Notes: generated from the sequence alone by a model not told the origin. Numbered from the stretch's first letter, positions 1,062 through 29,300 are shown. The stretch: 33,664 nt of DNA from a virus (IMGVR_UViG_3300027859_000048:1-33664); one strand, 5' to 3'. Numbers and translations are program-made.

Positions 1062-1798
1062 GTATACTTAGAGGTATGGCAGGGGCTTTAGGAGTTAATG
1101 ATGCTTTCATGCAAGCTCGATCAACGAGAGGTCAAAGAATTCGAGACGCGATAAGAAAAAGAGGCGGTAAAGGTGGTTTTTATGATTTATTTAATCGCCG
1201 CGCCAGGGGACAAAGCAACAGACAGCGTATGTTAGCGGCTGGTGCTGCTCCAAATATTGCTGAACAAAACATGGGAACAAGTGGACTATCAGGTATTATG
1301 CAGGGAGCACAAGTTTCAGGCGGTTTAATAGGAGCTGCTTCATCTGCGGCTGCTGCTCAACAACCCGTTCAGTCTGAAAGTTTAGCTCCAGCAGATAGAA
1401 AATCTGCTTTTGATGCTGGAATAAGAACTATAGATCCAATGGCAGGTATGACAGTGTTTGGAGCCAACAAAGCTAAAGCAGATGCCATGAATGATCCGGG
1501 TTTTGATCCTTACAATACTTTTGATGACGATTCTACTGCTCAAGATAGAGCAATAAAAGAACAAACAAGAAAATACAATCTTCTTAGAGCTGGTTTAACC
1601 CCAAGAACTATGGGTAGCAGCATAGATGATGCTTTTACTCAAGCTGGTGGAACTTTAAATTATGAGGCAAGACAAACACCTACTAGTGATTTTGATTATA
1701 GCACCTTAGGTTATCAGATGAGTAATAATCAAAACTTCGCGCAGTTATTTGCTGGAAATCAATCAGCTTTATATTTTAAAAAACAAAAAACAAAATGA
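1058..1798 (+). CDS. Unknown 246-aa Ala/Gly/Gln-rich probable virion protein
   Basis: I do not recognise this protein. The start at 1058 overlaps the previous stop as ATGA, and the end overlaps the next start in the same way. The first 60 residues are strongly basic (many Arg, with GGKGG and RRARGQSNRQR), a possible nucleic-acid-binding segment. Residues 75-105 are small and hydrophobic (Ala, Gly and Ser runs). The rest is polar with repeated Asp-Pro and Phe-Asp pairs and looks loosely folded. This composition is common in small internal head or ejection proteins of podoviruses. The setting, between the chaperonin genes and a series of small Lys/Met-rich proteins, fits a structural role, but no function can be read from it. 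Confidence 0.6.
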   Translation: MSILRGMAGALGVNDAFMQARSTRGQRIRDAIRKRGGKGGFYDLFNRRARGQSNRQRMLAAGAAPNIAEQNMGTSGLSGIMQGAQVSGGLIGAASSAAAAQQPVQSESLAPADRKSAFDAGIRTIDPMAGMTVFGANKAKADAMNDPGFDPYNTFDDDSTAQDRAIKEQTRKYNLLRAGLTPRTMGSSIDDAFTQAGGTLNYEARQTPTSDFDYSTLGYQMSNNQNFAQLFAGNQSALYFKKQKTK

Positions 1799-2019
1799 TG
1801 CATAAAACAGATCCAAATTACAATAAAACAATGGCGTCAAAAAACGTACACGGAGTTGTAGGTGAAAACGCAATATGGGACGGACCATTAGATCAAACAG
1901 GTAGACCTCACGCCGTGGGATCAAGTTCTGGTATAACAGGCATGGAAGTATTAAAGTTTCCTTGTAAATATGAAGCTGGACCAATTACTAGCAAAGCTAA
2001 AGTTTACAAAAATGTATAG
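1795..2019 (+). CDS. Hypothetical 74-aa protein
   Basis: The ATG at 1795 overlaps the upstream stop. A second in-frame ATG follows directly at 1798 and could equally be the start. The protein is polar and Gly-rich, with no membrane segment and a single cysteine (FPCKYEAGP). Its C-terminal codons overlap the likely ATG of the next gene at 2012. This chain of overlaps supports real translation. I recognise no domain. It belongs to the run of small proteins from 1058 to 4984. Confidence 0.55.
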   Translation: MMHKTDPNYNKTMASKNVHGVVGENAIWDGPLDQTGRPHAVGSSSGITGMEVLKFPCKYEAGPITSKAKVYKNV

Positions 2020-2227
2020 ATCACCATTTTTTAAGAAAGAAGAAGAGCAGGATATAAAGATCAAAGAAAAAAACGAAGGTAAATTCACTGATTGGATTAA
2101 AGATAATATGCCTGGTAAATCTACCTGCGAAGCAGCTACTGCTGTAATGAAAAATAAAGACAAATACACAACGCGTGTTATGAAAATGGCAAACTTTGCT
2201 AAGAACTTTGCTTGTAAAAAGAAATAA
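2012..2227 (+). CDS. Hypothetical 71-aa Lys-rich protein with two cysteines
   Basis: The frame is open from 1970, but I chose the ATG at 2012 because it overlaps the previous stop by eight bases, like the neighbouring junctions, and gives an N-terminus starting MYRSPFFKK. An SP motif near the N-terminus recurs in nearby proteins. Residues 10-30 are highly charged. The C-terminal half is helical, with regularly spaced Met, Ala and Lys and two cysteines (STCEAAT and FACKKK) about 30 residues apart. No known domain is visible. A small basic virion-associated protein is the most natural reading. Confidence 0.6.
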   Translation: MYRSPFFKKEEEQDIKIKEKNEGKFTDWIKDNMPGKSTCEAATAVMKNKDKYTTRVMKMANFAKNFACKKK

Positions 2228-2230
2228 GCT

Positions 2231-2674
2231 ATGACGAAATTTAGAGACGGGTTCATGATGAAAAGCCCTATGAAAGCCCATAAAGATATTATGGAACAAA
2301 TGAAAGCTAAATCTAAAGAATCAAGCGGCAGAGATGACGCTCTTGATTATGATAATCCTGAGGTAGTTGAACTTAAAAAAGAGTACGATAAAGAAAAACA
2401 AGACCACGCAGGAGATGGACCTCTTGAAATGGCTACAGCTTCATATAGAAGAACTCCAATGGATACTGAAACATATTATGGCGGTGAGATAGACGTACCA
2501 GACATTACTTCAGTTGGTGTATTAGCTGGAGCTGCTGTTGATACTCTTGAAAAAACAATAGCTGGTGGAGGCGCAGACTTTGAAGGAGATTTAAAAAAGA
2601 GAAAAGCAGAGTATAAGGGACAAGCTTGCCCTGAAGGTTATAAAATGGAAAATGGCAAATGCGTGCCAGAATAA
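2231..2674 (+). CDS. Hypothetical 147-aa protein with SP motif and C-terminal Cys hairpin motif
   Basis: It starts three bases after the previous stop, in an A-rich context without a Shine-Dalgarno. The N-terminus carries FMMKSPMKAHKD, one of the SP motifs shared by this cluster. Residues 20-60 are a charged, probably coiled region. The middle is mixed, with a small hydrophobic stretch (VGVLAGAAVDTL). The last 18 residues form a compact CPEGYKMENGKCVP motif, a two-cysteine beta-turn unit of the kind found at protein termini in secreted or virion proteins. I do not know its function; a small structural protein is likely from context. Confidence 0.6.
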   Translation: MTKFRDGFMMKSPMKAHKDIMEQMKAKSKESSGRDDALDYDNPEVVELKKEYDKEKQDHAGDGPLEMATASYRRTPMDTETYYGGEIDVPDITSVGVLAGAAVDTLEKTIAGGGADFEGDLKKRKAEYKGQACPEGYKMENGKCVPE

Positions 2675-2682
2675 AATAAGTT

Positions 2683-2937
2683 ATGGGAATGCAAAAAGGA
2701 CACTACGGAAAATATACTGGTAATGCTAAATGGTCAATGGACCACGCGCATACTAAGGTAACAAAAGAAAATTACAAAGCTACTGAGCGAGACGACGCGG
2801 CTCATATAGATTATTTAAAGCGTGATGTATTATATGATGATCATCACGGGCATAGCGACGAAAAAATGACTGCTGACGAGAAACATATTTCTAAATTAGC
2901 AGGCGATATGAAATATGACAAAAAACATCACAGTTAA
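2683..2937 (+). CDS. Hypothetical 84-aa His/Lys/Asp-rich protein
   Basis: A very polar protein with many His, Lys and Asp residues (DDHHGHSDE near residue 60, KKHHS at the C-terminus) and no cysteine or hydrophobic core. It begins nine bases after the previous stop and sits 17 bases before the next gene. Its histidine content resembles that of the following 172-aa protein, which suggests a shared setting such as a packaged, nucleic-acid- or metal-associated protein. This is inference from composition only. Confidence 0.55.
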   Translation: MGMQKGHYGKYTGNAKWSMDHAHTKVTKENYKATERDDAAHIDYLKRDVLYDDHHGHSDEKMTADEKHISKLAGDMKYDKKHHS

Positions 2938-2954
2938 ACTTAAAAATTAACATT

Positions 2955-3473
2955 ATGCCACATCATCCAGAAGGTCATTATATGACAAAAAAACTAGAAA
3001 AGCTACCTAAAAAAAAGATTAAAAAAGCTACAAAAAAACTAGAAAAGCCATCTAAACGAAAAATTAAAAAAGCTGCAAAACAACTAGGAAAAATGAGTAA
3101 ACAAATCCTTTCAGAAAAATTAACAAAAAATCCAATTGATATGAAATATGGTAAAGGACCTCATATGGGACACTCACCAGCAGAAATGGAATCTGCAAAA
3201 CAAGAAAAATACAACTTAATGCATGACAACCCAGTAGCTAAACACGCTAGTGGAGGATCATGGATGTCAAAGCACTCAAAGTCTGCTTTACACATGGGAC
3301 ATAGTCCAGCTGAAATGAGCCCATACAAAATGAATCATGACTCACCAGCTAAAAACTTAGGTCATGGCATGGATAAAATGAGTCCGGAAAAAGGTGCTCA
3401 TAGAGACTACCATTTAAAGCAGAGAATGTCTAAAAAGTCTAAAGATTCAATAGCTGAAATGAAAACAGATTAG
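2955..3473 (+). CDS. Repetitive Lys/Met/His-rich 172-aa protein
   Basis: The protein has two repetitive halves. Residues 12-56 hold three 15-residue units of the type KKLEKxxKxKIKKAx, very basic and probably helical. Residues 70-145 hold two exact copies of HMGHSPAEM, then SPYKMNHDSPAKN and KMSPEKGAH. There are no cysteines and no hydrophobic core. The basic half could bind DNA or RNA. The SP-containing motifs recur in neighbouring genes, so they may be a shared sorting, cleavage or assembly signal. I cannot assign a function. An in-frame ATG at 2982 could give a slightly shorter product. Confidence 0.6.
   Translation: MPHHPEGHYMTKKLEKLPKKKIKKATKKLEKPSKRKIKKAAKQLGKMSKQILSEKLTKNPIDMKYGKGPHMGHSPAEMESAKQEKYNLMHDNPVAKHASGGSWMSKHSKSALHMGHSPAEMSPYKMNHDSPAKNLGHGMDKMSPEKGAHRDYHLKQRMSKKSKDSIAEMKTD
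2988..3122 (+). repeat. Three tandem 45-base coding repeats
   Basis: Three units of 45 bases (2988-3032, 3033-3077, 3078-3122) encode the basic 15-residue repeats of the 172-aa protein. Units one and two are nearly the same in protein; the third has diverged in its second half. The unit length is a multiple of three, so copy number can change without a frameshift. Confidence 0.7.
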
Positions 3474-3533
3474 GACTGTACAAACCTAAACAAAACAACC
3501 AAAACCAAGTCAAACAATTAAAAACAAAACAAA
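3474..3533 (+). promoter_or_regulatory. A/C-rich, nearly G-free 60-base leader
   Basis: The interval between the 172-aa and 133-aa genes is made almost only of A and C, with a few T and very few G. It should be unstructured and has no Shine-Dalgarno. In Bacteroidota such A-rich open leaders favour efficient initiation. It is one of the longest intergenic gaps in the window, so a late promoter could also lie here, but I recognise no consensus. Confidence 0.35.
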
Positions 3534-3935
3534 ATGGCAAAATGGATTAATTTTCACGTAACAGGTGGATACGACAACTCAGGTGCTGTGCCAGCAGAAG
3601 ATGGAGACAACTTATTATTAGCTGATTCTATTCTAACTGTAGCAGTAGCTGCAAACGGAGCAGGAGATGCAATGTCTGCTACTTTAACAACTGCTACTAA
3701 AACAGTAACAGTTCTTTTTTCTTTAGATGCAGCAGCAACAGATCCTGGAGCAGCAAGCGCAAAACCAGCTTCGGCAGGATACATTAACAAAGTTAAAGCT
3801 GCTATTACTAGAGCTATTACAGCAAACCCAGGTGGAGTAAAATCTACAGTTAGCTTACCTCAAGATGTTGCAGATAACAATGCTGCATATGACTTTGCTA
3901 AAACAGTTTATTTTAAATCATTTAAAATAGCATAA
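3534..3935 (+). CDS. Putative small virion protein, 133 aa
   Basis: The protein is dominated by Ala, Thr, Val, Gly and Asp in alternating patterns, which suggests a beta-rich fold. Residues 1-45 (MAKWINFHVTGG onward) and 50-70 (strand-like TTATKTVTVLFSL) are the clearest strands. There are no cysteines and no long hydrophobic segment. Its soluble, low-complexity make-up and the unusually open leader before it fit an abundant small capsid decoration or tail protein. That function is inferred, not recognised. A 51-aa gene follows two bases after its stop. Confidence 0.55.
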   Translation: MAKWINFHVTGGYDNSGAVPAEDGDNLLLADSILTVAVAANGAGDAMSATLTTATKTVTVLFSLDAAATDPGAASAKPASAGYINKVKAAITRAITANPGGVKSTVSLPQDVADNNAAYDFAKTVYFKSFKIA

Positions 3936-3937
3936 TT

Positions 3938-4093
3938 ATGAAATCAATAGGTTTAGGAGACAGCGTAGAAAAGTTTACTAAAGCTACTGGCATCAAGAAA
4001 ATGGTAGACACAATGAGCAAGGGACTAAACATCCCTTGCGGTTGTGAAAGCCGAAAAAATGCATTAAACAAAATGTTTCCTTATAAAAAATAA
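3938..4093 (+). CDS. Small 51-aa protein with C-terminal CGC motif
   Basis: It starts two bases after the previous stop and ends one base before the next ATG, as expected of a real gene in this array. The sequence reads GLGDSVEKFTKATGIKKMVD, then IPCGCESRKNALNKMFPYKK. Helix 1, a second helix and a Cys-Gly-Cys turn followed by a basic LNxxFPY ending form a pattern I associate with small conserved proteins in phages of Bacteroidota and marine viruses. The two close cysteines could bind metal, perhaps through oligomerisation. The function is unknown. It is too short for common gene-length cut-offs and easily missed. Confidence 0.6.
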   Translation: MKSIGLGDSVEKFTKATGIKKMVDTMSKGLNIPCGCESRKNALNKMFPYKK

Positions 4094-4094
4094 C

Positions 4095-4409
4095 ATGGCT
4101 TTTAAATTAGACAATCCTCCATACGATAAAAAGCTTTTTAGCACTCCTATATATCACGTTGATATGGAAGATGATGTTATGGGTAAGGCTAATAATAATT
4201 TAACAATTATAATAAACAAAGATGTAGATCCTTCAAAAACTCAAGATGTTATAGATCACGAAATGGTGCATATAGACCAAATGAAACGTGGTGATCTTGA
4301 TTACGACGATGATAACGTTTATTGGAAAGGTAAAACATATTCAAGAGATAAAATGAACGAAGGCGCTAAAAACTTGCCTTGGGAAAACGAGGCTTATAAA
4401 AACGCATAA
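4095..4409 (+). CDS. Minimal HExxH putative metallopeptidase, 104 aa
   Basis: HEMVH at residues 55-59 is a zinc-binding HExxH motif inside an amphipathic helix (DVIDHEMVHIDQM). A possible third ligand is a glutamate in PWENEAY (E97 or E99). Residues 33-41 form the preceding beta strand, the order usual in small gluzincin-type metallopeptidases. At 104 residues it is close to the minimum for such a fold. It opens with MAFKLDNPPYDKKL, which resembles the N-terminus of the next gene. Sitting among virion genes, it could trim head proteins, act on the cell wall, or be an inactive structural relative. Zinc-site recognition is fairly good; substrate and activity are unknown. Confidence 0.6.
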   Translation: MAFKLDNPPYDKKLFSTPIYHVDMEDDVMGKANNNLTIIINKDVDPSKTQDVIDHEMVHIDQMKRGDLDYDDDNVYWKGKTYSRDKMNEGAKNLPWENEAYKNA

Positions 4410-4411
4410 CT

Positions 4412-4984
4412 ATGGCATTTAAAATGAAATACAGCGGCGGAACTCCATTTCACTTTCATGGTGGAGATCCAGCAGAGCACACTTCAAGCGCTGGAGGAAT
4501 AGATCCAAAAAAGCTAAAGTATAAAACAACTCAAACCGCTACAAATTTAGCTGGTGAAGATATTGACACAGCTGGAACTGCTAAGATAACAATACCTGGC
4601 AAAGAAGTTGAAAGATTAGCTCAACCTGGAACGCCTGAGTATGATAGATGGAAAGCTGCTGTTGAAAAAGATCCTTCTATAGAAGATAAATATAAAGATA
4701 AAGAAGTTACTGTAACTAGAGAGAGAGATTATAGTCAAGAAGAAAAATTATATCCAAACCCATTTAAAGGCATGGAAAATTATAAAGGTATAGTTTTAGA
4801 AAGAAATGTCAGAGAAGCAGATAGTTTACCATCTTCAACAATTACAAGAGCGTTTAAGACAGCTAATGATCGAGAAGGTTATCAAATTTATTTAGATAAA
4901 TATGGTTATAAAAGGAGAAAAGGCAAACCTAAAAAGAAAATATCAGAAAATTTAACTGAATATACTTATAAAATAGACGAATGA
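4412..4984 (+). CDS. Hypothetical 190-aa protein with MAFKMK N-terminus
   Basis: The N-terminus (MAFKMKYSGGTPFHFHGGDP) parallels that of the preceding gene and contains a TP variant of the cluster's SP motif. Residues 30-75 include strand-like segments with many Thr (KTTQTATNLAGEDIDTAGTAKITIPG). The C-terminal half is charged, ending in a Lys-rich RRKGKPKKK segment. I recognise no domain. It overlaps the holin gene by ATGA, so the two are probably translationally coupled. Confidence 0.55.
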   Translation: MAFKMKYSGGTPFHFHGGDPAEHTSSAGGIDPKKLKYKTTQTATNLAGEDIDTAGTAKITIPGKEVERLAQPGTPEYDRWKAAVEKDPSIEDKYKDKEVTVTRERDYSQEEKLYPNPFKGMENYKGIVLERNVREADSLPSSTITRAFKTANDREGYQIYLDKYGYKRRKGKPKKKISENLTEYTYKIDE

Positions 4985-6227: not shown

Positions 6228-6454
6228 TGAATTCAGTTATAAGAAAAATCAGTATAGGTTCTGATTATAAAAACGATGCAATGCATTATTCCGTAGGTCA
6301 ACAGGTTTATGGAGGCCATGAAATATCTTATATAGTTTTAGATGACTCTGATGGTTCTTATAATATTCACATAAAGAAAAACAATGAGGTATTACCATGG
6401 AAAAAATTTAATTCTAACATGGCTGTATCTGTTGAGTATGACTTAGAGTACTGA
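6227..6454 (+). CDS. Hypothetical 75-aa beta-rich protein
   Basis: Translation is coupled on both sides (TAATG at the start, TGATG at the end). The sequence contains several predicted strands: VIRKISIG, a YSVGQQVYGGHEISYIVLDD hairpin, YNIHIKK and AVSVEYDLEY. It is compact, with no cysteine, no membrane segment and a conserved-looking VGQxVxGG turn. The function is unknown. Its position between the coiled-coil protein and the GroES-like protein, with start/stop overlaps, suggests the three are made together. Confidence 0.6.
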   Translation: MNSVIRKISIGSDYKNDAMHYSVGQQVYGGHEISYIVLDDSDGSYNIHIKKNNEVLPWKKFNSNMAVSVEYDLEY

Positions 6455-7080
6455 TGAAAAGCTTGTATGATTTTATTTTAAAACCAATTGGTGATAAATA
6501 TAAAAACACAGTTGAAATAGCAGGTAAAGACGTTGTTGTTAATACTAAAATTGAAAACTGGAAGTTTGTAAACAGATTAGCTGAGATTATTGAAACACCA
6601 TTAGCTTTTAAATCAGGTATTAAAAAAGGTGATATAGTAATTATACACCAAAATGTATTTAGAACCTTTTACGATATGAAAGGTAATAAAAAGAAAAGCA
6701 GATCTTATTTTGAAAATGATTTGTATTTCTGTAGTCTTGACCAGGTTTATTTATATAAAAATAAAAACGGTTGGAACACTGTTGGTGACAGATGTTTTAT
6801 AACACCCATAAAAAGTAATGATTCTCTAACGCTTGATAAAGAGCGTAAGCTTATTGGTATATTAAAATATGGTAATAAGTCCTTAGAAGCGCTAGAAATA
6901 AACCCAGGAGACCTAGTTGGCTATACGCCTAATGGTGAATGGGAGTTTTTAGTTGAAGGAAAAAGACTTTACTGTATGAAATCTAATGATATTGTAATTA
7001 AGTATGAACACCAAGGAAACGAAGAAGAATATAATCCAAGCTGGGCAGCGTGCAGTCGAGGAGTTAATCAAAGTAGCTAA
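6454..7080 (+). CDS. 208-aa protein resembling two tandem GroES-fold domains
   Basis: The C-terminal domain, about residues 109-186, follows the co-chaperonin order: GDRCFITPIK, a loop, KLIGILKYGN, INPGDLVGYTPNGEWEFLVEGKR, and LYCMKSNDIVIKYE. E. coli GroES has DRVIV, GEVLAVGNG, VKVGDIVIF, EVLIMSESDILAIVE at the matching places. The first domain, about residues 20-103, shows the same plan with NRLAEIIETP, IKKGDIVIIHQNVFR and LYFCSLDQVYLYK. Neither half has an obvious GGIVL-like mobile-loop motif, so binding to GroEL is uncertain. The domains could be a structural reuse of the fold. A co-chaperonin role would fit the phage groEL/groES pair 6 kb upstream. The fold is inferred from motifs only. 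Confidence 0.55.
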   Translation: MKSLYDFILKPIGDKYKNTVEIAGKDVVVNTKIENWKFVNRLAEIIETPLAFKSGIKKGDIVIIHQNVFRTFYDMKGNKKKSRSYFENDLYFCSLDQVYLYKNKNGWNTVGDRCFITPIKSNDSLTLDKERKLIGILKYGNKSLEALEINPGDLVGYTPNGEWEFLVEGKRLYCMKSNDIVIKYEHQGNEEEYNPSWAACSRGVNQSS

Positions 7081-7276
7081 AGAAGCTATTGTAGATTCAG
7101 ATGATGATATATCAGCTGACAGACTCAAGAACGCAGCAGCCACTAAAAAGCTAGCTATATTCGATGCCTTTGAAATACTTAATCGCATTGAAGAAGAAGA
7201 AAACTTATTAAACGAAAAACCTAAAGAAGTTAAAGAAAGAACTTTTAAAGGTTTTGCAGAAGGTAGATCATCGTAA
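7004..7276 (+). CDS. Putative terminase small subunit, 90 aa
   Basis: The gene overlaps the 208-aa gene by 77 bases and the terminase by one base (TAATG). The ATG at 7004 is the first start in frame; the helical core (AGQRAVEELIKVAKE) begins soon after it, so a later start is not supported. The protein is almost wholly helical and acidic, with LKNAAATKKLAIFDAFEILNRIEEEENLL as a likely coiled coil. Small terminase subunits are short helical proteins directly upstream of the large subunit and recognise the packaging site. I see no clear helix-turn-helix at its N-terminus, so the call rests mainly on position and size. Confidence 0.45.
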   Translation: MNTKETKKNIIQAGQRAVEELIKVAKEAIVDSDDDISADRLKNAAATKKLAIFDAFEILNRIEEEENLLNEKPKEVKERTFKGFAEGRSS

Positions 7277-9486
7277 TGTACAAACAGAGTTTATATAAAG
7301 TTTTAAAAGACCATGTAAAGCCTAAGGTTTTAAAAAGAACTAATAGGTATAAAAAATGGGAGTATGGATATAACAAAGAACACGATATGGTTGTTATATC
7401 TAAGACAGGTAAGATAGGTGAAGTATATGAAATACAGAATTTAAAAATAGCTTTACCTGAAAAGTTTAACGTAGAAAAATTTGATTCAAACACATGGGAA
7501 TATTCTGAGTATCCTAAAGTATTGAAAAAAATAAAGTCTGTATTTGACTGGGAAGAATACCCACTAGACTTTAAAGAAAAATGGTATGATTACATCGATA
7601 GTGAATTCAATAAAAGAGAACAAGGCTTTTGGTTCTATAATAAGAATGTGGCTACTTACATTACTGGTACTCACTATATGTACCTGCAGTGGTCCAAAAT
7701 TGATGTTGGGCAACCAGATTTTAGGGAATCAAACAGATTATTTTACATATTCTGGGAAGCTTGTAAAGCCGATCATAGGTCATATGGAATGTGCTACCTT
7801 AAAAATAGACGATCTGGATTCTCATTTATGGCGTCCGGGGAGTGCGTTAATATGGCAACCATATCAAGCGACTCTAGATTTGGCATTTTATCAAAGAGTG
7901 GACCTGATGCGAAGAAGATGTTTACGGATAAGGTGGTACCAATATCGGTTAATTACCCCTTCTTTTTTAAACCAATACAGGACGGTATGGACCGCCCCAA
8001 GACAGAGCTCGCCTATCGTGTACCAGCCAGTAAATTCACCCGTAAGAAACTCGAAACCAACGAGACATTACGTGAGCTCGACGGCCTCGACACCACGATC
8101 GACTGGAAGAATACCGGTGACAACTCGTACGACGGTGAAAAACTCAAGCTACTCGTCCACGACGAAAGCGGTAAATGGGAACGCCCGACGAACATCCTCA
8201 ACAACTGGCGTGTCACGAAAACGTGTTTACGATTAGGTAGTAGAATTATAGGTAAATGTATGATGGGTTCAACTAGTAACTCATTAGACAAAGGTGGTGA
8301 TAATTTTAAAAAATTATATAATGACTCAGACGTTACTCAAAGAAATGCAAATGGACAAACTCGCTCTGGATTATATAGCTTGTTCATACCTATGGAATGG
8401 AATTACGAAGGATACATCGATTCTCATGGCTTACCTGTATTCGACACCCCAAGCAAGAAAATTAGTGGACCGCAAGGCGAAACAATTGAGCAAGGTGTTA
8501 TAGAATACTGGGATAATGAAGTTGCTGGATTAAAACAAGATCAAGATGCTTTAAATGAATTCTACAGACAATTTCCAAGAACAACTAAGCACGCATTTAG
8601 AGATGAATCAAAAGACTCTTTATTTAATCTAACTAAAATTTATGAGCAAATAGATTTTAATGAAGATTTAAGAAATTCTATAAATATAACACAAGGCAAT
8701 TTTGCTTGGAAAAATGGCGTGCAAGATTCCGAAGTTATATTTTTACCTAACAAAAATGGTAGATTTTTTATAACATGGGTTCCGTCTGTTAGTATGCAAA
8801 ACGCGGTAATAACTAAGTCAGGAATTAAATATCCATTAAATGAAACAATGGGGGCTTTTGGTTGTGATCCTTACGATATATCAGGTACTGTAGACAATAG
8901 GGGTTCTAAAGGTTCTTTGCACGGGCTTACTAAATTTTCAATGACAGACACACCGCCAAACCACTTTTTTTTAGAATATATAGCAAGACCTCAAACAGCT
9001 GAAATATTTTTTGAAGATGTGCTTATGGCCTGCGTATTTTATGGCATGCCAATACTAGCAGAAAACAACAAACCAAGATTACTATACCATTTTAAAAGAA
9101 GAGGTTATAGAGGCTTTTCAATGAACAGGCCTGATAGAAAAAGAAATAAATTATCTGTAACAGAAAGAGAATTGGGTGGTATACCAAATTCTAGTGAAGA
9201 TATAAAACAAGCTCATGCAGCTGCTATAGAGTCTTATATTGAAGACTTTGTTGGTTTAAAAGAAACAGGCTATGGGGATATGTATTTTCAAAAAACATTA
9301 GAAGACTGGTCTCAGTTTAATATAAACAACAGAACAAAACACGATGCTTCAATAAGTTCTGGATTAGCATTGATGGCTTGCAACAAGCACAGGTATTCTC
9401 CAAGTGCTCCAATAAAATTAAAAGCCGTAGATTTAGGTATTAAAAAATATGACAACAAAGGTTCTATGTCAAAAATAATAAGTTAA
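7276..9486 (+). CDS. terL: Terminase large subunit (packaging ATPase and nuclease), 736 aa
   Basis: The protein drives DNA into the prohead and cuts it. The Walker A-like loop is KNRRSGFS (residues 176-183); its lysine sits at the front of the loop, as in lambda gpA (KSARVGYS), instead of the usual GKS/T. Walker B is LLVHDE (292-297), with the catalytic glutamate E297. GST (331-333) is the coupling motif. The nuclease domain begins around residue 525, with GCDPYD (D531) and further acidic residues in EIFFEDV (about 580). Length is above the typical 500-600, with an N-terminal extension of about 110 residues. Residues 236-314 are encoded by a GC-rich, codon-switched island described separately. 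The portal starts directly after the stop. Confidence 0.88.
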   Translation: MYKQSLYKVLKDHVKPKVLKRTNRYKKWEYGYNKEHDMVVISKTGKIGEVYEIQNLKIALPEKFNVEKFDSNTWEYSEYPKVLKKIKSVFDWEEYPLDFKEKWYDYIDSEFNKREQGFWFYNKNVATYITGTHYMYLQWSKIDVGQPDFRESNRLFYIFWEACKADHRSYGMCYLKNRRSGFSFMASGECVNMATISSDSRFGILSKSGPDAKKMFTDKVVPISVNYPFFFKPIQDGMDRPKTELAYRVPASKFTRKKLETNETLRELDGLDTTIDWKNTGDNSYDGEKLKLLVHDESGKWERPTNILNNWRVTKTCLRLGSRIIGKCMMGSTSNSLDKGGDNFKKLYNDSDVTQRNANGQTRSGLYSLFIPMEWNYEGYIDSHGLPVFDTPSKKISGPQGETIEQGVIEYWDNEVAGLKQDQDALNEFYRQFPRTTKHAFRDESKDSLFNLTKIYEQIDFNEDLRNSINITQGNFAWKNGVQDSEVIFLPNKNGRFFITWVPSVSMQNAVITKSGIKYPLNETMGAFGCDPYDISGTVDNRGSKGSLHGLTKFSMTDTPPNHFFLEYIARPQTAEIFFEDVLMACVFYGMPILAENNKPRLLYHFKRRGYRGFSMNRPDRKRNKLSVTERELGGIPNSSEDIKQAHAAAIESYIEDFVGLKETGYGDMYFQKTLEDWSQFNINNRTKHDASISSGLALMACNKHRYSPSAPIKLKAVDLGIKKYDNKGSMSKIIS
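7981..8228 (+). other. GC-rich, codon-switched island inside terL
   Basis: By hand count the 240 bases 7981-8220 contain 128 G/C (53%), while a 60-base sample just after (8281-8340) is 28%. All six Arg codons from residue 240 to 312 are CGC or CGT; the rest of the gene uses AGA. Seven of nine Leu codons are CTC instead of TTA. All eight Asp codons are GAC, and both Ile codons are ATC. The reading frame and Walker B motif are intact. The downstream boundary lies within a few codons of 8228, where TTA and AGA return; the upstream boundary is more gradual, from about 7900. Confidence 0.85.
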
Positions 9487-11868
9487 ATGAAGATATACAC
9501 TAATACTAGAAGTGCATTTCCTAGCCAAGTTGTTAGTGAAGAAGTTAAATCCAGTTTAGACTATGGCAAGCAAGTTGCTCAAGCTATAGAGGGCGAGTGG
9601 TTTGATCAAGGCAGAACAACAGGTAATAGGTATTTAACTAATTGGAATAATTTTAACCAATTAAGACTCTACGCTAGAGGCGAGCAAAGCGTTCAAAAAT
9701 ATAAAGATGAATTATCTATAAATGGTGATTTGTCTTATCTTAATTTAGACTGGACACCTGTTCCTATTTTGTCTAAGTTTGTAGATATTGTAGTAAATGG
9801 TATTTCTTCTAAGTCTTACGAAATAAAAGCTTACGCTCAAGATCCAGAGTCTGTAATAAAAAGAACTACATACGCTTCTAAGCTTTATGAAGATATGATT
9901 TCTCAAGATTATTTATCTATTTTGCAAGAAACTCTAGGCATTGATGCTTATCAGTCACCAAACAAAGATGTTGTTCCAGAGTCAAAAGAAGAATTAGAAC
10001 TTCACATGCAGTTGAGTTATAAACAATCAATAGAAATAGCAGAAGAAGAAGCTATATCAAGCATTATGGCTCAAAATAAATACCAATTAACAAGAAGAAG
10101 GCTAAATATGGATTTAGCGGTTTGTGGTATTTCTGCTGTTAAAACTAGTTTCAACGTAGCTAATGGAGTGACTATAGAATATGTTGATCCTGCTTACATG
10201 GTTTATTCTTACACAGAAGATCCTAATTTTGAAGATATATATTACGTAGGAGAAGTAAAGTCTATTACTATACCTGAGCTCAAAAAAGAGTTTCCAAATA
10301 TATCAGAAGAAGAGCTAAAAAGAATTCAAAGCATGCCAAGTAATAAGTCTTATATTACTGGTTATGGAAACTATGACAATAACACAGTTCAAGTTTTATA
10401 CTTTGATTATAAAACATATCATAATCAAGTTTTTAAAATTAAACAAACAGAGCAGGGTTTATTAAAAGCTATTGAAAAACCAGACACTTTTAACCCACCT
10501 GAAAGTGACATGTTTGAAAAAGTTTCAAGATCTATAGAGGTTTTATATAGTGGCGCTAAAGTGTTAGGAACAGAAACAATGCTTAAATGGGAGCTAGCTG
10601 AAAACATGTCTAGACCAATGTCAGACACTACTAAAGTAAAAATGAATTACGCCATATGCGCGCCAAGAATTTATAAGGGTAGAATTGAATCATTGGTTAG
10701 TAGATGCACTGGTTTTGCAGATATGATACAATTAACACATCTAAAACTTCAACAAGTAATTTCTCGTATGGTTCCTGATGGTGTTTATTTAGATATGGAC
10801 GGTTTAGCTGAAGTCGATTTAGGCAACGGCACTAATTATAACCCAGCAGAAGCTTTAAACATGTATTTTCAAACTGGTTCCGTGATTGGTAGATCACTAA
10901 CTCAAGATGGCGAAATGAACGCCGGCAAAGTTCCAGTTCAAGAACTACAAAGCGGAAGTGGTAACGCTAAGATACAAAGTCTTATTACAACTTATCAGTA
11001 CTATCTTCAGATGATAAGAGACGTGACGGGATTAAACGAAGCTCGAGACGGTAGCTTGCCAGATAGAAACACTTTAGTAGGATTACAGAAACTAGCTGCT
11101 AATGCTTCTAACACTGCAACCAAGCATATAACTCAAGCAGGTATGTACTTGACCTTGCGCATAGCTGAAAACGTTACTTTAAAAATAGCAGACGCTTTAG
11201 AATTTCCTCTTACAAGATCATCGTTGCAAAGCTCTATTTCAACTTTTAACGTAAAAACTTTAGAAGAAATTATAAAATTAAATATGCATGATTTTGGTAT
11301 ATTTCTAGAACTTGAACCAGAGGAAGAAGAACAAGCTCAATTAGAAGCAAATATTCAAGCTTCTATTCAGCAAGGTGGTATAGATTTAGAAGACGCTATA
11401 GATTTAAGACAAATAAAAAATCTTAAACTAGCTAATCAAATGCTTAAAATAAAAAGAAATCAAAAGCAAGCTAGAGATCAACAAGTTCAACAAGCTAATA
11501 TAGCGGCTCAAGCAGACGCTCAAGCTCAAACAGCAGAAAGAACCGCAATGGCAGAAGTAGAAAAACAACAAGCAATTACTTCCACTAAAGTTGACTTTGA
11601 GCAGTCTAAAAGCCAAATGGAAATACAACGTATGAATACTCAGACACAATTAGACATGCAGAAAATGGCTAAAAAATTTGAGTATGACAGACAGTTGAAA
11701 CAAATGGAAGTACAGGCTATTGGCTCTAAAGAGCAAATGATAGAAGATAGAAAAGATAAGCGTATAAAAATGGAAGGTACGCAACAAAGTGAAATGATAA
11801 GTCAAAGAAAAAACGATGGCTTGCCAATTGATTTTGAAAATCAACCCGATATGGGCGCGTTTATGTAA
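9487..11868 (+). CDS. Portal protein, 793 aa
   Basis: The gene starts at the base after the terL stop, the usual place for a portal. Residues 1-110 resemble portal N-terminal wing segments (WFDQGRTTGNRYL, YARGEQSVQKYK, WTPVPILSKFVDIVVNG). The middle contains RRRLNMDLAVCGISAVKTSF followed by EYVDPAYMVYSYTEDPNFEDIYYVGE, a block I associate with portals of Bacteroidota podoviruses. The last 150 residues are Gln-, Lys- and Met-rich coiled coil, resembling the barrel extension of P22-type portals. The portal is a dodecameric ring through which DNA enters and leaves. Family confidence is good from context and motifs, although portals diverge widely. Confidence 0.82.
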   Translation: MKIYTNTRSAFPSQVVSEEVKSSLDYGKQVAQAIEGEWFDQGRTTGNRYLTNWNNFNQLRLYARGEQSVQKYKDELSINGDLSYLNLDWTPVPILSKFVDIVVNGISSKSYEIKAYAQDPESVIKRTTYASKLYEDMISQDYLSILQETLGIDAYQSPNKDVVPESKEELELHMQLSYKQSIEIAEEEAISSIMAQNKYQLTRRRLNMDLAVCGISAVKTSFNVANGVTIEYVDPAYMVYSYTEDPNFEDIYYVGEVKSITIPELKKEFPNISEEELKRIQSMPSNKSYITGYGNYDNNTVQVLYFDYKTYHNQVFKIKQTEQGLLKAIEKPDTFNPPESDMFEKVSRSIEVLYSGAKVLGTETMLKWELAENMSRPMSDTTKVKMNYAICAPRIYKGRIESLVSRCTGFADMIQLTHLKLQQVISRMVPDGVYLDMDGLAEVDLGNGTNYNPAEALNMYFQTGSVIGRSLTQDGEMNAGKVPVQELQSGSGNAKIQSLITTYQYYLQMIRDVTGLNEARDGSLPDRNTLVGLQKLAANASNTATKHITQAGMYLTLRIAENVTLKIADALEFPLTRSSLQSSISTFNVKTLEEIIKLNMHDFGIFLELEPEEEEQAQLEANIQASIQQGGIDLEDAIDLRQIKNLKLANQMLKIKRNQKQARDQQVQQANIAAQADAQAQTAERTAMAEVEKQQAITSTKVDFEQSKSQMEIQRMNTQTQLDMQKMAKKFEYDRQLKQMEVQAIGSKEQMIEDRKDKRIKMEGTQQSEMISQRKNDGLPIDFENQPDMGAFM

Positions 11869-11877
11869 ACGTTTAAT

Positions 11878-11899
11878 TATTTAATTATATTATATTATG
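11878..11899 (+). promoter_or_regulatory. 22-base leader motif before the scaffold gene (copy 1)
   Basis: TATTTAATTATATTATATTATG, read through the start codon, differs at one base of 22 from the leader of the gene at 14653. Both follow the stop of a major structural gene. It could be a translation enhancer or a late promoter element; no Shine-Dalgarno is present. Confidence 0.4.
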
Positions 11900-13099
11900 T
11901 CAGAACAAACACAAGAAGCTGTAAAGCAAGAAGGTGATTTTAAACTTAAAAAGAAAGCACCTAAAAAATTTAAAGAAACAAAAGACAACATTACAAAAGT
12001 AAATGTTAATGCCAAAGAACCTTTAATAGAATTAGAGCCAGAGGTAAAGAAAGTAGTAATTCCAAAACAAGAAGAAAAAGAAGATGCCATTCAAATCGGA
12101 GAAACAAAGGAGGTATCTGTGGAAGAACCATCCGGAGATAGCACAACGGTGGGAGAACCTGTACAAGAGTCCAACGAGACTACTGAAGGGTTTTCTCCGA
12201 TCCAAGAAGTAACTGAAGAAGAAGTAATAACTAAAGCTGAAGTTAAAGAAGCTCTAAGAGATGAAAAAGTATTAGGTAAACCTTTACCTGAAAATATTGA
12301 AAAGCTAGTTGCCTTTATGGAGGAAACCGGTGGTACGATAGAAGACTATGCTAGGTTGAACGCCGACTATAGTAATGTAGATGATAAAACTCTTATAAAA
12401 GAGTACTACAAAAAAAATAAACCTTACTTAGATTCTGAAGATCTTGATCTTTTATTAGAAGATTTTGAATTTGATGAAGACATAGATGAGGAAAAAGACG
12501 TAAGAAAAAAGAAACTTGCGTTTAAAGAAGAAGTTGCAAAAGCCAAAAACTTTTTAGAGGAAACTAAGAGTAAATATTACGACGAGATCAAGTTGAGACC
12601 GGGCGTTACTCAAGAACAACAAAAAGCCATGGACTTTTTCAATAGATATAACAAGGAGCAAAAACAAGCTGAGCAACAGCATCAGACTTTTAAAGATAAT
12701 ACTAAAAAGCTTTTCAGTGATGATTTCAAAGGTTTTGATATCAAAGTTGGTGAAAAGAAATACAAGTACAATATCCAAAACAAAGATAAAGTTGCAGAAA
12801 GCCAGTCAAATATAACAAACCTCGTTGGGAAGTTCTTAAACGAAAATGGTGATGTTGTAGATCATGTTGGTTATCACAAGGCTATTTATGCTGCTGAAAA
12901 TGTAGATAAAATTGCCGCTCATTTTTACGAGCAAGGAAAAGCGGATGCTGTAAAAGACGTTGTAAATAAATCAAAAAACTTGAGTGACACTAAAGCTAGG
13001 ACTACTCAAGGAGATGTATTTCTTGGCGGATTTAAAGTTAAAGCTATTTCAGGCGCTGATTCTACAAAACTTAAAATAAAAACTAAAAAATTTAACTAA
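11897..13099 (+). CDS. Putative capsid scaffolding protein, 400 aa
   Basis: Located between portal and major capsid, the standard place for a scaffold. The protein is highly charged: a Lys-rich start (LKKKAPKKFKETKD), an acidic, low-complexity region (about 45-110), then a folded helical part with LPENIEKLVAFMEETGG, YLDSEDLDLLLEDFEFDED and a long Lys/Glu helix (KKKLAFKEEVAKAKNFLEE). The C-terminal 60 residues are basic. This arrangement, with a capsid-binding basic C-terminus, fits scaffolding proteins of podoviruses. No protease motif is visible. A perfect AAAGGAGGT sequence at 12106-12114 lies five bases before an in-frame GTG at 12119, so an internal start is possible. The part around 12100-12210 is GC-richer than its surroundings. 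Confidence 0.7.
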   Translation: MSEQTQEAVKQEGDFKLKKKAPKKFKETKDNITKVNVNAKEPLIELEPEVKKVVIPKQEEKEDAIQIGETKEVSVEEPSGDSTTVGEPVQESNETTEGFSPIQEVTEEEVITKAEVKEALRDEKVLGKPLPENIEKLVAFMEETGGTIEDYARLNADYSNVDDKTLIKEYYKKNKPYLDSEDLDLLLEDFEFDEDIDEEKDVRKKKLAFKEEVAKAKNFLEETKSKYYDEIKLRPGVTQEQQKAMDFFNRYNKEQKQAEQQHQTFKDNTKKLFSDDFKGFDIKVGEKKYKYNIQNKDKVAESQSNITNLVGKFLNENGDVVDHVGYHKAIYAAENVDKIAAHFYEQGKADAVKDVVNKSKNLSDTKARTTQGDVFLGGFKVKAISGADSTKLKIKTKKFN

Positions 13100-13114: not shown

Positions 13115-14572
13115 ATGAGTTTAACTCCTCAATTTGGTAGTTTAATTCCATCTCAAACACAAGAGATTTTAGAATCAAATTACTTAAAATTTAACGACGG
13201 TGGTGCTGGAAACACTGACACATTTGCTCAGCAGTATTTACCTGAAATTTACGAACAAGAAGTAGAGCGTTATGGAAACAGAACGTTATCTGGCTTTTTA
13301 CGTATGGTTGGCGCTGAAATGCCAATGACATCTGACCAAGTTATTTGGTCTGAGCAAAATAGACTACACATATCTTACGACAACGTGACTGTTGTAGCGG
13401 GTGGTGCTGGTACTACAAATGTTATTAACTTACCTGCAGGCGTAACAAATGTTGTTTCTGCAAACGACACTGTTGTTGTTTTAGATCCAGCTACTGGTGG
13501 AGAGGCTAAATGTCTTGTTACTGCTAGTACTCCTGGTGCTGGAGGTGGTGTTGGTACTTTTACGGTAGCTCCATTTAACGGTGCAAAGCTAGATGACCCT
13601 GCCAACGGTATTACTGCTGGAGCTGGAATCAAAGTATTTGTTTACGGTTCTGCTTATCAGAAAGGTGTATCTTTAAATAAGTATGATGCTGTAAGTAATC
13701 CAAATGGGTATGTTTCTGTAGAACCTGTTTTAACTCAATTTTCAAATACGCCAATTATCATTAGAAGCCAATACGTAGTATCTGGTTCTGATATGGCGCA
13801 AATTGGATGGGTTGAAGTTGCTACTGAAGATGGTGCTTCTGGATATTTATGGTACTTAAAAGCTGAGTCTGAAACAAGATTACGCTTTGAAGATTACTTA
13901 GAAATGTCTATGGTAGAATCTGAAAAATCAGCTCTAGCCGGCGCTGCAACATTGCCTGGTAGTGAAGGTTTATTTGCTGCTATCGAAGATCGTGGTAACG
14001 TACAAGTAGGATTTACAGCTGCTGCTGGAATTGATGACTTTGACGCTATCTTGAAAAACTTAGATACTCAAGGTGCTATTGAAGAAAACATGCTTTTCTT
14101 GCAAAGACAAACAGCTCTTGATTTTGACGATATGCTAGCTGCAATCTCTGGTGGAACTGCCGGTGGTACTGCATTTGGTTTATTTGAAAACTCAGAAGAA
14201 ATGGCATTGAACCTAGGGTTCAGCGGTTTCCGAAGAGGATCTTACGATTTCTACAAAACTGATTGGAAATACTTAAACGATGCTTCAACTCGTGGCGCTA
14301 TCGATGGAATTAACTCTATCGAAGGCGTATTGATACCAGCTGGAACATCTACAGTATACGATCAAGTACTAGGAACTAATATACGTAGACCTTTCTTACA
14401 TGTACGATACAGAGCTTCACAAGCTGATGATCGACGTATGAAGTCTTGGTTAACTGGTTCTGCTGGTGGCGCATTTACATCTACTCTTGATGCTATGGAA
14501 GTAAACTTCCTATCAGAAAGATGTTTAGTTGTACAAGCTGCTAACAACTTTGTACTTTTCAAAGGTATCTAA
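13115..14572 (+). CDS. Major capsid protein, 485 aa
   Basis: It follows the scaffold after a 15-base A/T leader and precedes a strong terminator, as expected for the most abundant virion protein. The N-terminus (QEILESNYLKFNDGGAGNTDTFAQQYLPEIYEQEVERYGNRTLSGFL) forms a long helical arm. Residues around 92-185 are a Gly/Ala/Val-rich beta insertion. The centre and C-terminus contain mixed segments typical of HK97-fold P and A domains (for example IEENMLFLQRQTALDFDDML and the ending ANNFVLFKGI). HK97-fold capsids cannot be proven by eye, but gene order, size and the terminator make this call strong. Codon use is slightly more GC-rich than in the neighbours, which fits high expression. Confidence 0.82.
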   Translation: MSLTPQFGSLIPSQTQEILESNYLKFNDGGAGNTDTFAQQYLPEIYEQEVERYGNRTLSGFLRMVGAEMPMTSDQVIWSEQNRLHISYDNVTVVAGGAGTTNVINLPAGVTNVVSANDTVVVLDPATGGEAKCLVTASTPGAGGGVGTFTVAPFNGAKLDDPANGITAGAGIKVFVYGSAYQKGVSLNKYDAVSNPNGYVSVEPVLTQFSNTPIIIRSQYVVSGSDMAQIGWVEVATEDGASGYLWYLKAESETRLRFEDYLEMSMVESEKSALAGAATLPGSEGLFAAIEDRGNVQVGFTAAAGIDDFDAILKNLDTQGAIEENMLFLQRQTALDFDDMLAAISGGTAGGTAFGLFENSEEMALNLGFSGFRRGSYDFYKTDWKYLNDASTRGAIDGINSIEGVLIPAGTSTVYDQVLGTNIRRPFLHVRYRASQADDRRMKSWLTGSAGGAFTSTLDAMEVNFLSERCLVVQAANNFVLFKGI

Positions 14573-14633: not shown

Positions 14634-14655
14634 TATTTAATTTTATTATATTATG
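14634..14655 (+). promoter_or_regulatory. 22-base leader motif (copy 2)
   Basis: TATTTAATTTTATTATATTATG differs from the scaffold leader at 11878-11899 by one base. It lies directly after the terminator, so it would be well placed to restart transcription or to promote translation of the next gene. Confidence 0.4.
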
Positions 14656-15471
14656 GCTAAAAAAGCTACAGCAGAAACAACTGTTGAGGTTGCACCTCAG
14701 CCCGTGGTTACAAAAACACCACCTAAGCCCGCAAAAAACGCGTGGGAAATAAAAGATAGATTTTATTATTTAACAAACAAAAAATCTCCAATTACTTTTA
14801 CAATACCTAGTAAGCACACAAAAAAACACTCTTTGTTGTACTTTGATAAAAAAACAGGTAGCCAAAAAGAAATTAGATATGCAACTAACCAAGATTCTCC
14901 GTTTGTAGAAGAACAAAAAGGTGAAGCAACACTAGGTCACATAATATTTAAAGACGGTGACTTAAAAGTTCCAAAAGAAAAACAAAATTTACAAAAATTA
15001 CTTTCTTTATATCACCCTTTAAAAGGTAAAATGTATGAAGAATTTAGTGCTGTTGAAGAAGCTGTTGATCAATTAGAAATATTAGATCTTCAAATAGACG
15101 CATTAAACTCTGCTAGAAATATGGAGATAGATCAAGCAGAAGCAATATTAAGAGTTGAGCTTGGATCTAAAGTAAGTAGCATGAGTTCTAAGGAAATCAA
15201 AAGAGATTTACTTTTGTTTGCTAGAAATAATCCAGTTTTGTTTATTAATTTAGCAAATGACGACAATGTTCAGTTAAGAAATATAGCTATTAGAGCAACT
15301 GAAGCTAATATAATTAACTTGTCTAGCGATCAAAGAACATTTACGTGGGGATCAAATGGTAGAAAATTAATGAATGTGCCTTTTGACGAAAATCCTTATT
15401 CAGCGTTTGCTGCATTTTTGAAAACAGACGAAGGTGTTGAAATCTATAAATCTATAGATAAAAAACTATAA
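14653..15471 (+). CDS. Hypothetical 272-aa probable structural protein
   Basis: The gene lies between two hairpins, so it forms its own transcription segment. The first 30 residues are Ala/Pro/Thr/Lys-rich and probably disordered. Residues 34-100 look beta-rich (DRFYYLTNKKSPITFTIPS, HSLLYFDKKTG, LGHIIFKDGDLKVP). Residues 125-200 are helical (EEFSAVEEAVDQLEILDLQIDALN and MEIDQAEAILRVEL). The C-terminal part ends LMNVPFDENPYSAFAAFLKTDEG. I do not recognise the family. Its place next to the capsid gene suggests a minor head or neck component. Confidence 0.6.
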   Translation: MAKKATAETTVEVAPQPVVTKTPPKPAKNAWEIKDRFYYLTNKKSPITFTIPSKHTKKHSLLYFDKKTGSQKEIRYATNQDSPFVEEQKGEATLGHIIFKDGDLKVPKEKQNLQKLLSLYHPLKGKMYEEFSAVEEAVDQLEILDLQIDALNSARNMEIDQAEAILRVELGSKVSSMSSKEIKRDLLLFARNNPVLFINLANDDNVQLRNIAIRATEANIINLSSDQRTFTWGSNGRKLMNVPFDENPYSAFAAFLKTDEGVEIYKSIDKKL

Positions 15472-26378: not shown

Positions 26379-29300
26379 ATGACATTAGAAGAAAAAACTA
26401 TAGAACTTCAGTCTCAGTTTCCTCCGTTGAAAGTTGGGCAAATTATAGAAATTCTTAAAAACTTTAAACCTGATGAAGAGGTTGTAGAAGAGGTTGAGGA
26501 AACACCTACACAAGAAGTTGTAAGTGAAACTGAAGTTACAAGCGATGACCAGACTCCTGAAGCGGGAAACCAAAACAGCTCTATAACGCCGGATCCGGTT
26601 GTAGAGCAGACAAACAACACAGGGTCCGATCCTTCAGATTCTGGAGATGGCAAATCACAATTAAGTCCTCGCGCTGTAGCTAATCTTGATTTAATAAATC
26701 AAAGAGCAGAAAGAGCTATATCTATGGATGCGGCAGTAGATGTAAGAAAATCTAGAAGATCTCTTGAAGAAGCCGCTGGCTTTGTTGCTGACTTTAAATC
26801 TTCATCTAATGTTGTTAACGAGGTTGGTGTATTTAGAGACAAAGATGGTAATGTTATAGATACAAGCAATGTAGAGATTGAAGAACAAAAAATACCAGCT
26901 CCTTTTACTCAAGAAAGAAAAGATTATTATGATGAAAAAGGTTTTGCTTACGATAATACCATAGTTCAAGATGAGCAAAAACTTCCTTATGATTTTAATA
27001 AAAAACTCAAACAAGCTGTTTCTGAATATGAAAAAGTAAACGATACTGATAAAATAGCTTTAACTCCAGACCAAGCTAAACAAGCTGGTTTAATACCACA
27101 AGATTCTAGTGTAACAAGTCAGCAATTATATTCTGTAGAAGAATATTTAAAAAGTGATTTTGTAAAAAACAAATCACTAGATCTTATGTCTAAAATAAAC
27201 GATCCTAATTTTGCTAAGTTTACTGATCAAGAATTAACGCAAAAAGCTGCTTCAAATTATTTTGGTAATTTAAAAAGTAGAAATGCTGTTAGAACAAGTT
27301 CTGGAACTGGCGCGGCTTATGGCGCTGCCCCTGAATTTTCATCAGATGAAGAATATGATGAATATTTGCTAAAAACCCTTGGAAAAGAAAAGTTTGAAGA
27401 ATATAAAATATATAACCCAGATTATAAGAGTGGAATAAGTATAGAGAGTAAAAAATTTGTTGGTGGTAGTTTTGATATTACACCAGACCAACAAGAGCAA
27501 GCAACAAATGAGCTTATTGCTAAGAAAGTTCAAATAGAAATGTACGGAGCTTTTGGTGAAGGTGAACTAAGAGGAAAAGGTGTTGGGGATAATAGAATTC
27601 TAGGTATTGCAGCCAAACTTCATGATAAAAACATAGGTGAATCTCAATTAGAGACTGAAGAGTTAGAAATATTTAAAAAAGATTTAACTAATAGAGGAAT
27701 TGAGTTAGAAAAAAACAACGCTGAAATACAAAAAAAACTAGACCCTATTGTAAAAAACTTAAATCAACTTTCTTCTAAAAAAGACGCGTTATTAGCTAAA
27801 ATAAAAGAGTATGAAAGTTCTAATTTCTTTTCTACATTAAACCCTGGTTATAAAAAAGCTATAGATGAATACAACAGTGCTTTAAGCAATTATCAAAACG
27901 CTTATAGCGATTATAAATCTAGTGAAATTAGTAAGCTTGCTAAAATCGCAGATCAAGATACTAAAGTTTACAAGTATAGATTAGATAATTTTATGCGAAG
28001 AGCTGAGGCTTCTTATGAAGACCCTACAAAAGTTGTAGAGTTTGCGTTAGGACTAGATTATAGCAACTCAGCTAAAGTTGCAAATTCTTTATATAACACT
28101 TTTATTAAAGATACTAAAAACTTTGGTAATCTAACAGCTCAAGCTTTTTTAAAAGCTGTTAACTTATTAGGACCTACTGGCTTAAACACAGCCGTGTACT
28201 CTTTACAGCAAAGTATGTATAATTACAATAAGCGGCTAGCTGAAGAAACTCAGGCTAATATTGCACCAAGTTTAGAAATAGACGACATAGGTAAAGGTAA
28301 TATAGGATTTTTTGATTATTCCATGCAGGCTTTATCAGATCAAACTGGAACTATAGCTCTAGGAGCTTCTTATGTTTTTACAGGAGGCACAACTTCTTTA
28401 TTAACAGCCCCTTTAAAAGCTGGTTCTAGTTTTGCTAAAAGAAGAGCTTTTAAGATAATGCAAAAAAGAGTTGCATTAGCTCAGCAAAGGATAGTTTCTA
28501 CTGTTTTTGGAATGTCCGAAACAGGTAGTTCTATTGGTGAGTCTACTATGGAAAAATATGACGCTATTAAGTCTGTTGATTTTTACAATGAAGCTATAGA
28601 GTCCGGTCAGTATACCGCTGATCAGTTAGAAGAAATGGGATTAGATATAGATGATCTTAGAAGAAAGGCAAGTTATACTTGGAATTCTATGGCTTTTAAC
28701 GCTTATGGCGCTGGCGCAATAGCTAGATATGCTGAAAAACTAGGTACAATAAAAATGCCATCTATATTACGAAACGCTTCTAAGCAGCGGGGTATAAACA
28801 ACATTATAAAAACAAAAATATATAAACATGATTTTGGTTTAAAAGCTTTATATACAAGCAAAAGAGCGCTTCAAGGCTTAAGACCTTTAGCTACAAAAGC
28901 AGTACCAGGTGAATTATTAGAAGAAAGCTTAACAGAAATAGGTCAAAAAGCTTTAAGATATTACGCGTTAGATGAAAACGGAAGCTGGCTAGAAGGAATA
29001 AATAAAGATTTTATCGGTAAAACAAGTATAAGCTCTTTAGCTATGATGGCTCCTGGTTCGATGCAAAATGTATTTACTACTCTTAAAAGCGATTTTAGAT
29101 CAATAGATGATTTATCTGCAAATCTTAAGCTTAGAAATAGATTAAATCAATTAGATCTTTTAATGCCTAGTTTACAAGGTTCTAGACGTATCGAGGCTAA
29201 AAAAGAAAAAAGAGATATACTAAGAACTTTTGCTTTAAATGAAGTCAGTAGTATTCAGAAATTAAACCATCTAAATGCTGATCAAATATTTGAAATAGCG

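Follow-up and report, generated by a model that had tools for sequence, protein, structure and literature searches.

A short N-terminal Ser-Pro peptide shared by non-homologous small late proteins in a clade of marine phages

The viral record IMGVR_UViG_3300027859_000048, the whole 33,664 bases of which are termed the window below, encodes a terminase large subunit, a portal, a major capsid protein and further structural genes, preceded by a cluster of small late genes (Table 1). Four of the small proteins, designated by the first position of their genes (2012, 2231, 2955 and 4412), carry short motifs centred on Ser-Pro (SP) or Thr-Pro (TP), hereafter tags: RSPFFKK in protein 2012; MMKSPMKAH in protein 2231; GHSPAEM twice, HDSPAKN, KMSPEKG and an overlapping MSPYKM in protein 2955; and GTPFHFH following MAFKMK in protein 4412. 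All motifs listed in a preliminary description of the window lie where it had placed them. Its proposed comparison with shuffled proteins of equal composition also favours the motif: SP occurs 7 times in the four proteins vs. 2.04 in shuffles (p 0.0018), and the pattern SP[LFMA]x(1,2)[KMNH] 5 times vs. 0.22, a count reached by 0 of 5000 shuffles. Across the remaining late genes of the window SP is at chance (2 vs. 3.3). The gene for the 71-aa protein probably starts at ATG 2012 and not at the longest-frame start at 1970, since relatives begin MY[RKTS]SPF. Among 19 distinct relatives of protein 2231, F-M-x-[K/A]-S-P-[LIMFV] is kept throughout and His at +5 in 18, and the syntenic relative of protein 4412 (L099 3783) reads MAFKMKHLGGSPLHDH.

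Table 1 Tag-bearing proteins, neighbouring small genes and head genes of the window
Feature	Position	Strand	Remarks
71-aa basic protein	2012..2227	+	tag MYRSPFFKK, then helical domain; tag DNA ~2018-2038
147-aa protein	2231..2674	+	N-terminal tag ...FMMKSPMKAH; tag DNA ~2255-2281
172-aa Lys/His/Met-rich protein	2955..3473	+	tandem motif copies, from sequence; 31 loci in IMG/VR
Motif copies in protein 2955	3168; 3222; 3297; 3336; 3375		GHSPAEM; HDNPVAK; GHSPAEM then MSPYKM; HDSPAKN; KMSPEKG
190-aa protein starting MAFKMKYSGGTPFHFH	4412..4984	+	TP variant after common MAFKM start; TPF DNA ~4442-4450
104-aa gluzincin-type mini-metallopeptidase (HEMVH, W-E97)	4095..4409	+	candidate processing enzyme or co-packaged cargo
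74-aa GENAIWDGPL family	1795..2019	+	mostly in tagged genomes; rarely tagged itself
84-aa His/Lys-rich GHYGKYTGNA family	2683..2937	+	between tagged genes; window copy without SP
51-aa GLGDxIEKFTKATGIK...CGC...FPYK protein	3938..4093	+	in tagged and untagged clades; no tag in the rows examined
Terminase large subunit	7276-9486	+	PHROG hits, synteny; untagged
Portal	9487-11868	+	PHROG hits, synteny; untagged
Putative scaffold	11897-13099	+	PHROG hits, synteny; untagged
Major capsid protein	13115-14572	+	PHROG hits, synteny; untagged

The motif is likewise enriched in related phages. In clustered open reading frames (ORFs) of ~110 relatives, SP occurs 95 times vs. 48.6 within the first 40 residues of small proteins (z 6.9); the remainder of the same proteins holds 106 vs. 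103, and minus-strand ORFs as well as large proteins are near chance. For 12 long relatives and the window, families were clustered on the residues after position 35 (proteins of <75 aa as a whole), so that the tag could not drive the clustering for most of them. SP[LF] is found within the first 40 residues in 21.2 of these 234 non-homologous families vs. 3.4 expected (z 10.7; maximum of 500 shuffles, 10), which establishes the conservation in relatives that the preliminary description had left to be checked. The reversed motif [LF]PS occurs in 2.5 families vs. 3.4 expected, neither S[LF]P nor [LF]SP exceeds chance, and at C-termini SP[LF] accounts for 1.5 vs. 2.5 expected. According to an unrestricted profile, SP is preceded by K, S or N and followed by L or F, then K/N, then K/Q/M. 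The tag core is S-P-[F/L]-x-[K/Q/N]; it is N-terminal in most carriers and specific to one clade of phages. The shuffles preserve composition and not phylogeny, which is answered in part by the clustering, by untagged orthologues and by the tree described below. ORF calling was mechanical, with ATG as the sole start codon, and overlooked some tags (2012 ORF of the window and of L201). The set also includes several partial genomes and the frameshifted G004. On the G004 contig (L125, 3592-9437) terminase, portal and putative scaffold are each split over several ORFs, probably by assembly errors.

SP can arise by chance in small proteins rich in Ser, Pro and Lys. An artefact of composition, or a repeat spread at the DNA level, is nevertheless an extremely improbable source of the pattern: the z of 10.7 was obtained against composition-preserving shuffles with the controls at chance, and neighbouring copies, as well as orthologues, differ in serine codon class. 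As the tags draw on both classes, selection acts on the peptide; a DNA-level element is ruled out by the mixed codons. A mild TCA bias in tag serines is shared by SP elsewhere in these genomes.

Within single families, orthologues with and without the tag were found. Among 70 distinct homologues of protein 2012, 58 are SP-tagged and 12 start at the domain (e.g. MAEKEFPEIKEK vs. MYSSPFLKKQEFPEIKEK). Ser and Pro are invariant in the tagged set (54 distinct sequences), with six serine codons in use; position +2 is F or L in all but one sequence, +4 is K or Q, and most neighbouring positions are variable. The same contrast is seen in a DUF5872-like family (MGKISGPCKAAAKRKFKVWPSAYASG in G002 vs. 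MSSPLYGKISGACKAAAKKKFKVWPSAYASG in G007), in a DUF6321 family (MPKSNEPRKTTKGRGRNF in G002 vs. ...ESPLHKNEPRKTTKGKGRNF in G008 and MAYIQPDSPFLRVRKTTKGKDRNF in L077) and in the KVKGGG family, between G002 and tagged genomes. The N-terminal position, the pairs of tagged and untagged orthologues, the strict conservation with varied codons and the many non-homologous carriers together bear out the earlier suggestion of a common signal in unrelated proteins.

The distribution of the tag follows phage ancestry. Loci with an untagged 2012 homologue carry almost no further tagged small genes, and pooled tag counts vs. expectation are 29 vs. 4.2 in tagged genomes, 1 vs. 1.2 in the untagged G002/G009 clade, 4 vs. 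3.2 in the loci with an untagged 2012 homologue and 3 vs. 1.5 in the four named relatives. In cultured relatives (Cellulophaga, Flavobacterium and Tenacibaculum phages) the tag is at chance level, and tblastn searches with proteins 2955 and 2012 against annotated phages retrieved no credible relatives, so that this collection yielded no cultured tagged phage. On a tree of the winged helix-turn-helix (wHTH) protein, tag state needs just two changes. This puts the origin of the tag at one or two events, after which many unrelated proteins took it up, a course to be expected if a single reader evolved in the clade. The preliminary description had envisaged that the motif might track with one capsid or portal gene; it tracks with the clade instead, tagged and untagged genomes having their portal, capsid and terminase families in common. 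When genes were searched for one partner that co-occurs with the tag, the GENAIWDGPL family, a canonical metallopeptidase and the GHYGKYTGNA family came up; with tag state being this clade-like, however, co-occurrence cannot name the reader. The GENAIWDGPL family is present in 0 of 14 loci picked for an untagged 2012-family protein and in five loci scored as untagged, one of which (L201) is an ORF-calling miss.

Tagged genes occupy late positions: almost every tag of a tagged genome maps either to the interval from groES/wHTH to holin/terminase or immediately downstream of the giant virion gene. Some families (e.g. the DUF5872-like family and the L135 6211 family) occur in either spot depending on the genome and are tagged in both. 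Small, basic two-spot families (DUF5872-like, DUF6321 and others) were observed at L135 2685-6444 (G007 42685-46444) and L049 2424-3257. Compared with other small ORFs, the carriers have a higher charge (+4.7 vs. +1.7 per 100 aa) and more Lys (12.8 vs. 9.0 %), and are less hydrophobic. In the AlphaFold2 (AF2) model of protein 2012, residues 1-20 have a predicted local distance difference test (pLDDT) score of ~45 and residues 21-70, which form a three-helix domain, one of 76-88; the tag is thus predicted to be disordered and the domain to be folded. Foldseek found no match for this model, and sequence searches of Pfam, PHROG and PDB with the tagged proteins gave none that was convincing except the DUF5872-like family (below cut-off) and DUF6321, a domain present in two tagged families. 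In Pelagibacter phage HTVC200P (L137 2911-3162) a DUF6321 gene is located between the scaffold and capsid genes, a position which points to a role of this family in the virion or its assembly.

The basic character of the carriers, together with the lysines that follow some motifs (SPFFKK, SPIKK), recalls SPKK (S/T-P-K/R-K/R) elements, which bind the DNA minor groove as in histone tails. SPKK and S(T)PXX motifs likewise place SP in basic proteins, but need basic residues after Pro, where the tags mostly have a hydrophobic one (F/L/V/I). In tagged genomes, SP[KR] is rarer than expected (1 vs. 5.95) and [ST]P[KR][KR] at chance level (2 vs. 1.8); the SPKK motif was therefore rejected, and a role of this kind is highly improbable.

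In the 2955 family, the motif occurs in multiple copies. SP or NP motifs are arranged around a core, MESxKQEKYNLMHDNPVAKHASGGSWMSKH, with 1-11 [SN]P copies in 84 distinct members, GHSPAEM being the commonest. The two GHSPAEM copies of protein 2955 encode Ser by TCA vs. AGT and differ in further codons, hence they do not represent a fresh DNA duplication. The tandem copies fit multivalent binding better than a single-use leader, and the protein could also be bulk cargo. The internal copies also bear on the idea that the tag is a degron or stability signal setting the half-life of small late proteins. An extreme N-terminal, disordered, hydrophobic and basic segment would suit such a signal; besides the internal repeats, however, restriction to late structural neighbourhoods and to one phage clade would stay unexplained, which renders a degron very unlikely.

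A common binding partner of the tags is very likely, because their parallel acquisition by unrelated proteins is hard to explain otherwise. We favour, at a probability of roughly 0.5, the reading that the N-terminal S-P-[F/L]-x-[K/Q/N] is an address peptide which gathers the late carriers on this partner, most likely a part of the prohead. A short flexible tag on ~20 non-homologous, small, lysine-rich late families would be recognised by a prohead component (scaffold, portal or capsid interior); the tagged proteins would enter the head with the DNA and then be ejected into the host, as are the internal proteins of phage T4. Proteins of the 2955 type could act on the same partner as a multivalent organiser or as bulk cargo. 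For the prohead as destination, the odds are about even. In support of packaging, the tagged genes adjoin the head/packaging module or follow the giant virion gene; moreover, the same late region of Cellulophaga phage phi38:1 encodes two small basic proteins, gp69 and gp80, that bear a structural annotation, and a gp80 homologue is present in the untagged clade. Out of the functions offered at first for the motif (packaging, cleavage, modification or docking), docking or packaging is the best backed, by the location of the genes, the abundance of Lys and the example of T4; modification lacks support.

The closest parallel is the capsid-targeting sequence (CTS) of T4, which is N-terminal and cleaved. 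The CTS is the sole conserved part of highly diverse internal proteins, the lysines of which contact DNA, and directs them into the prohead scaffolding core (PMC3012670). Like the CTS, the tag is a short N-terminal peptide common to otherwise unrelated phage proteins and, although it may work in the same manner, is not filed as a CTS. Unlike the CTS, the tag is spread over more carrier families and is also found internally and in multiple copies. Encapsulins offer a second comparison, since their short terminal targeting or cargo-loading peptides dock diverse cargo inside an HK97-fold shell, N-terminal versions included (PMC8346489). These peptides are, however, mostly C-terminal with the consensus SDGSLGIGSLKRS, in contrast to the SPFxK type found here in phages and on multi-copy carriers; no C-terminal enrichment was detected, and the consensus is S-P-[FL]-x-[KQN]. 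Much protein is stored in the head and tail of crAss001, a Bacteroidota-infecting podovirus, and the words 'signal' and 'targeting' do not appear in the main text of the respective paper (PMC10172136). The crAss001 cargo (gp45/gp46, RNA polymerase) is large, whereas the tagged proteins are small.

Several observations weigh against delivery to the prohead. Packaging of the tagged carriers is an inference. Homologues of terminase, portal, capsid and scaffold also exist in the untagged clade; the partner would be either a head protein that differs subtly between clades or a different protein altogether. The tag does co-occur with GENAIWDGPL, GHYGKYTGNA and the canonical metallopeptidase, but clade confounds the association. 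An S78-family prohead protease, the role of gp21 in T4, was not found in 8 genomes, a further difference from the CTS system. Finally, gp69 and gp80 of phi38:1 owe their structural label to the record and are both untagged, so that relatives do not require the tag for packaging.

The mini-metallopeptidase 4095 raises the question of cleavage. H55, E56, H59, W96 and E97 are invariant in 36 relatives, and HExxH with a downstream Glu ligand, as in minigluzincin/IrrE-type enzymes, is present. Its AF2 model (pLDDT 83.8) bears a weak likeness to IrrE/PprI, Wss1-type proteins, abylysin and selecase (best Foldseek E 0.11; VIA Z up to 6.2 with IrrE and 4.0 with abylysin, both weak matches). Hundreds of related phage loci keep an enzyme of this type in their late cluster; to our knowledge, its role is undescribed. 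The enzyme could process the tag or be cargo itself, as its N-terminus, MAFKLDNPPY, is tag-like. If the motif were its recognition or cleavage site, tags would be removed at head maturation and 2955-type proteins cut to peptides, much as T4 internal proteins are processed after capsid targeting. The catalytic residues are invariant, the gene lies inside the cluster, and the canonical enzyme is encoded by 9 of 9 tagged long genomes plus G012, vs. only a relative of ~25 % identity in G002/G009. This co-occurrence is, however, confounded by clade, and untagged genomes L190, L196 and L040 also hold an enzyme with 40-44 % identity, others a divergent one. Moreover, the tandem copies resemble binding repeats as much as cut sites, beyond the tag no conserved residue marks a scissile bond, and the enzyme's own N-terminus looks like that of a cargo protein. 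We regard tag cleavage by this enzyme as unlikely.

Short linear motifs usually bind folded partners, so docking on a partner unrelated to packaging during late infection, such as host polymerase, clamp or chaperonin, or phage GroEL/GroES, also deserves consideration. The cluster adjoins groES, and groEL lies upstream in relatives. Such docking is doubtful, however, given that the same chaperonin genes are present in untagged relatives, that tagged genes hold late structural positions rather than positions among early genes, and that many carriers look lysine-rich and DNA-compatible instead of resembling diverse effectors. In the window, one GroES-like gene (364-624) stands beside the groEL end, and a long, divergent one (6454-7080; PHROG 13932) directly upstream of the terminase gene.

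Delivery to the prohead may also be part of a wider, clade-wide peptide-address system, a possibility advanced here only tentatively. A reader would have evolved, many late proteins would have gained an SPFxK tag, and 2955-type strings, multivalent hubs with up to 11 SP/NP copies, would organise them into a core or condensate inside the head. No described counterpart was found of a cargo-sorting code with both tags and hub, and literature searches, which covered N-terminal motifs common to internal head proteins as well as virion proteomes of flavophages, turned up no report of this tag.

The phages belong to an uncultured, marine, podovirus-like group that probably infects Bacteroidota. The window portal shares 50 % identity with that of an uncultured podovirus (Manatee Spring), 42 % with Flavobacterium elemoviruses and 27-34 % with Cellulophaga phages. 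IMG/VR is rich in close relatives of the window terminase, which among genome bins are frequent in marine Bacteroidota bins and elsewhere represent clear mis-binning. Portal kinship and these bins make Bacteroidota the likely hosts, Flavobacteriia being probable. Contigs of the same group (L324-L357) in archaeal, Pelagibacter, Desulfobacteraceae and Aliivibrio metagenome-assembled genomes look mis-binned. The giant gene (26379-33662) exits the window; it starts with an acidic low-complexity stretch, and its final part has a weak polynucleotide-kinase PHROG match (E 0.0014). A head-region protein after the capsid gene (14653-15471) contains an internal KSPITFTIPSK (KSPLTFTIPSK in L050), the tag likeness of which may be accidental.

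If the tag is an address for the head, the cargo of many uncultured ocean phages would become predictable from a simple N-terminal pattern, hypothetical small late genes would become a testable class, and there would be a new means of loading phage heads with proteins. The natural pairs of tagged and untagged orthologues provide a ready comparison for studying the origin of a common sorting signal in proteins that are not related.

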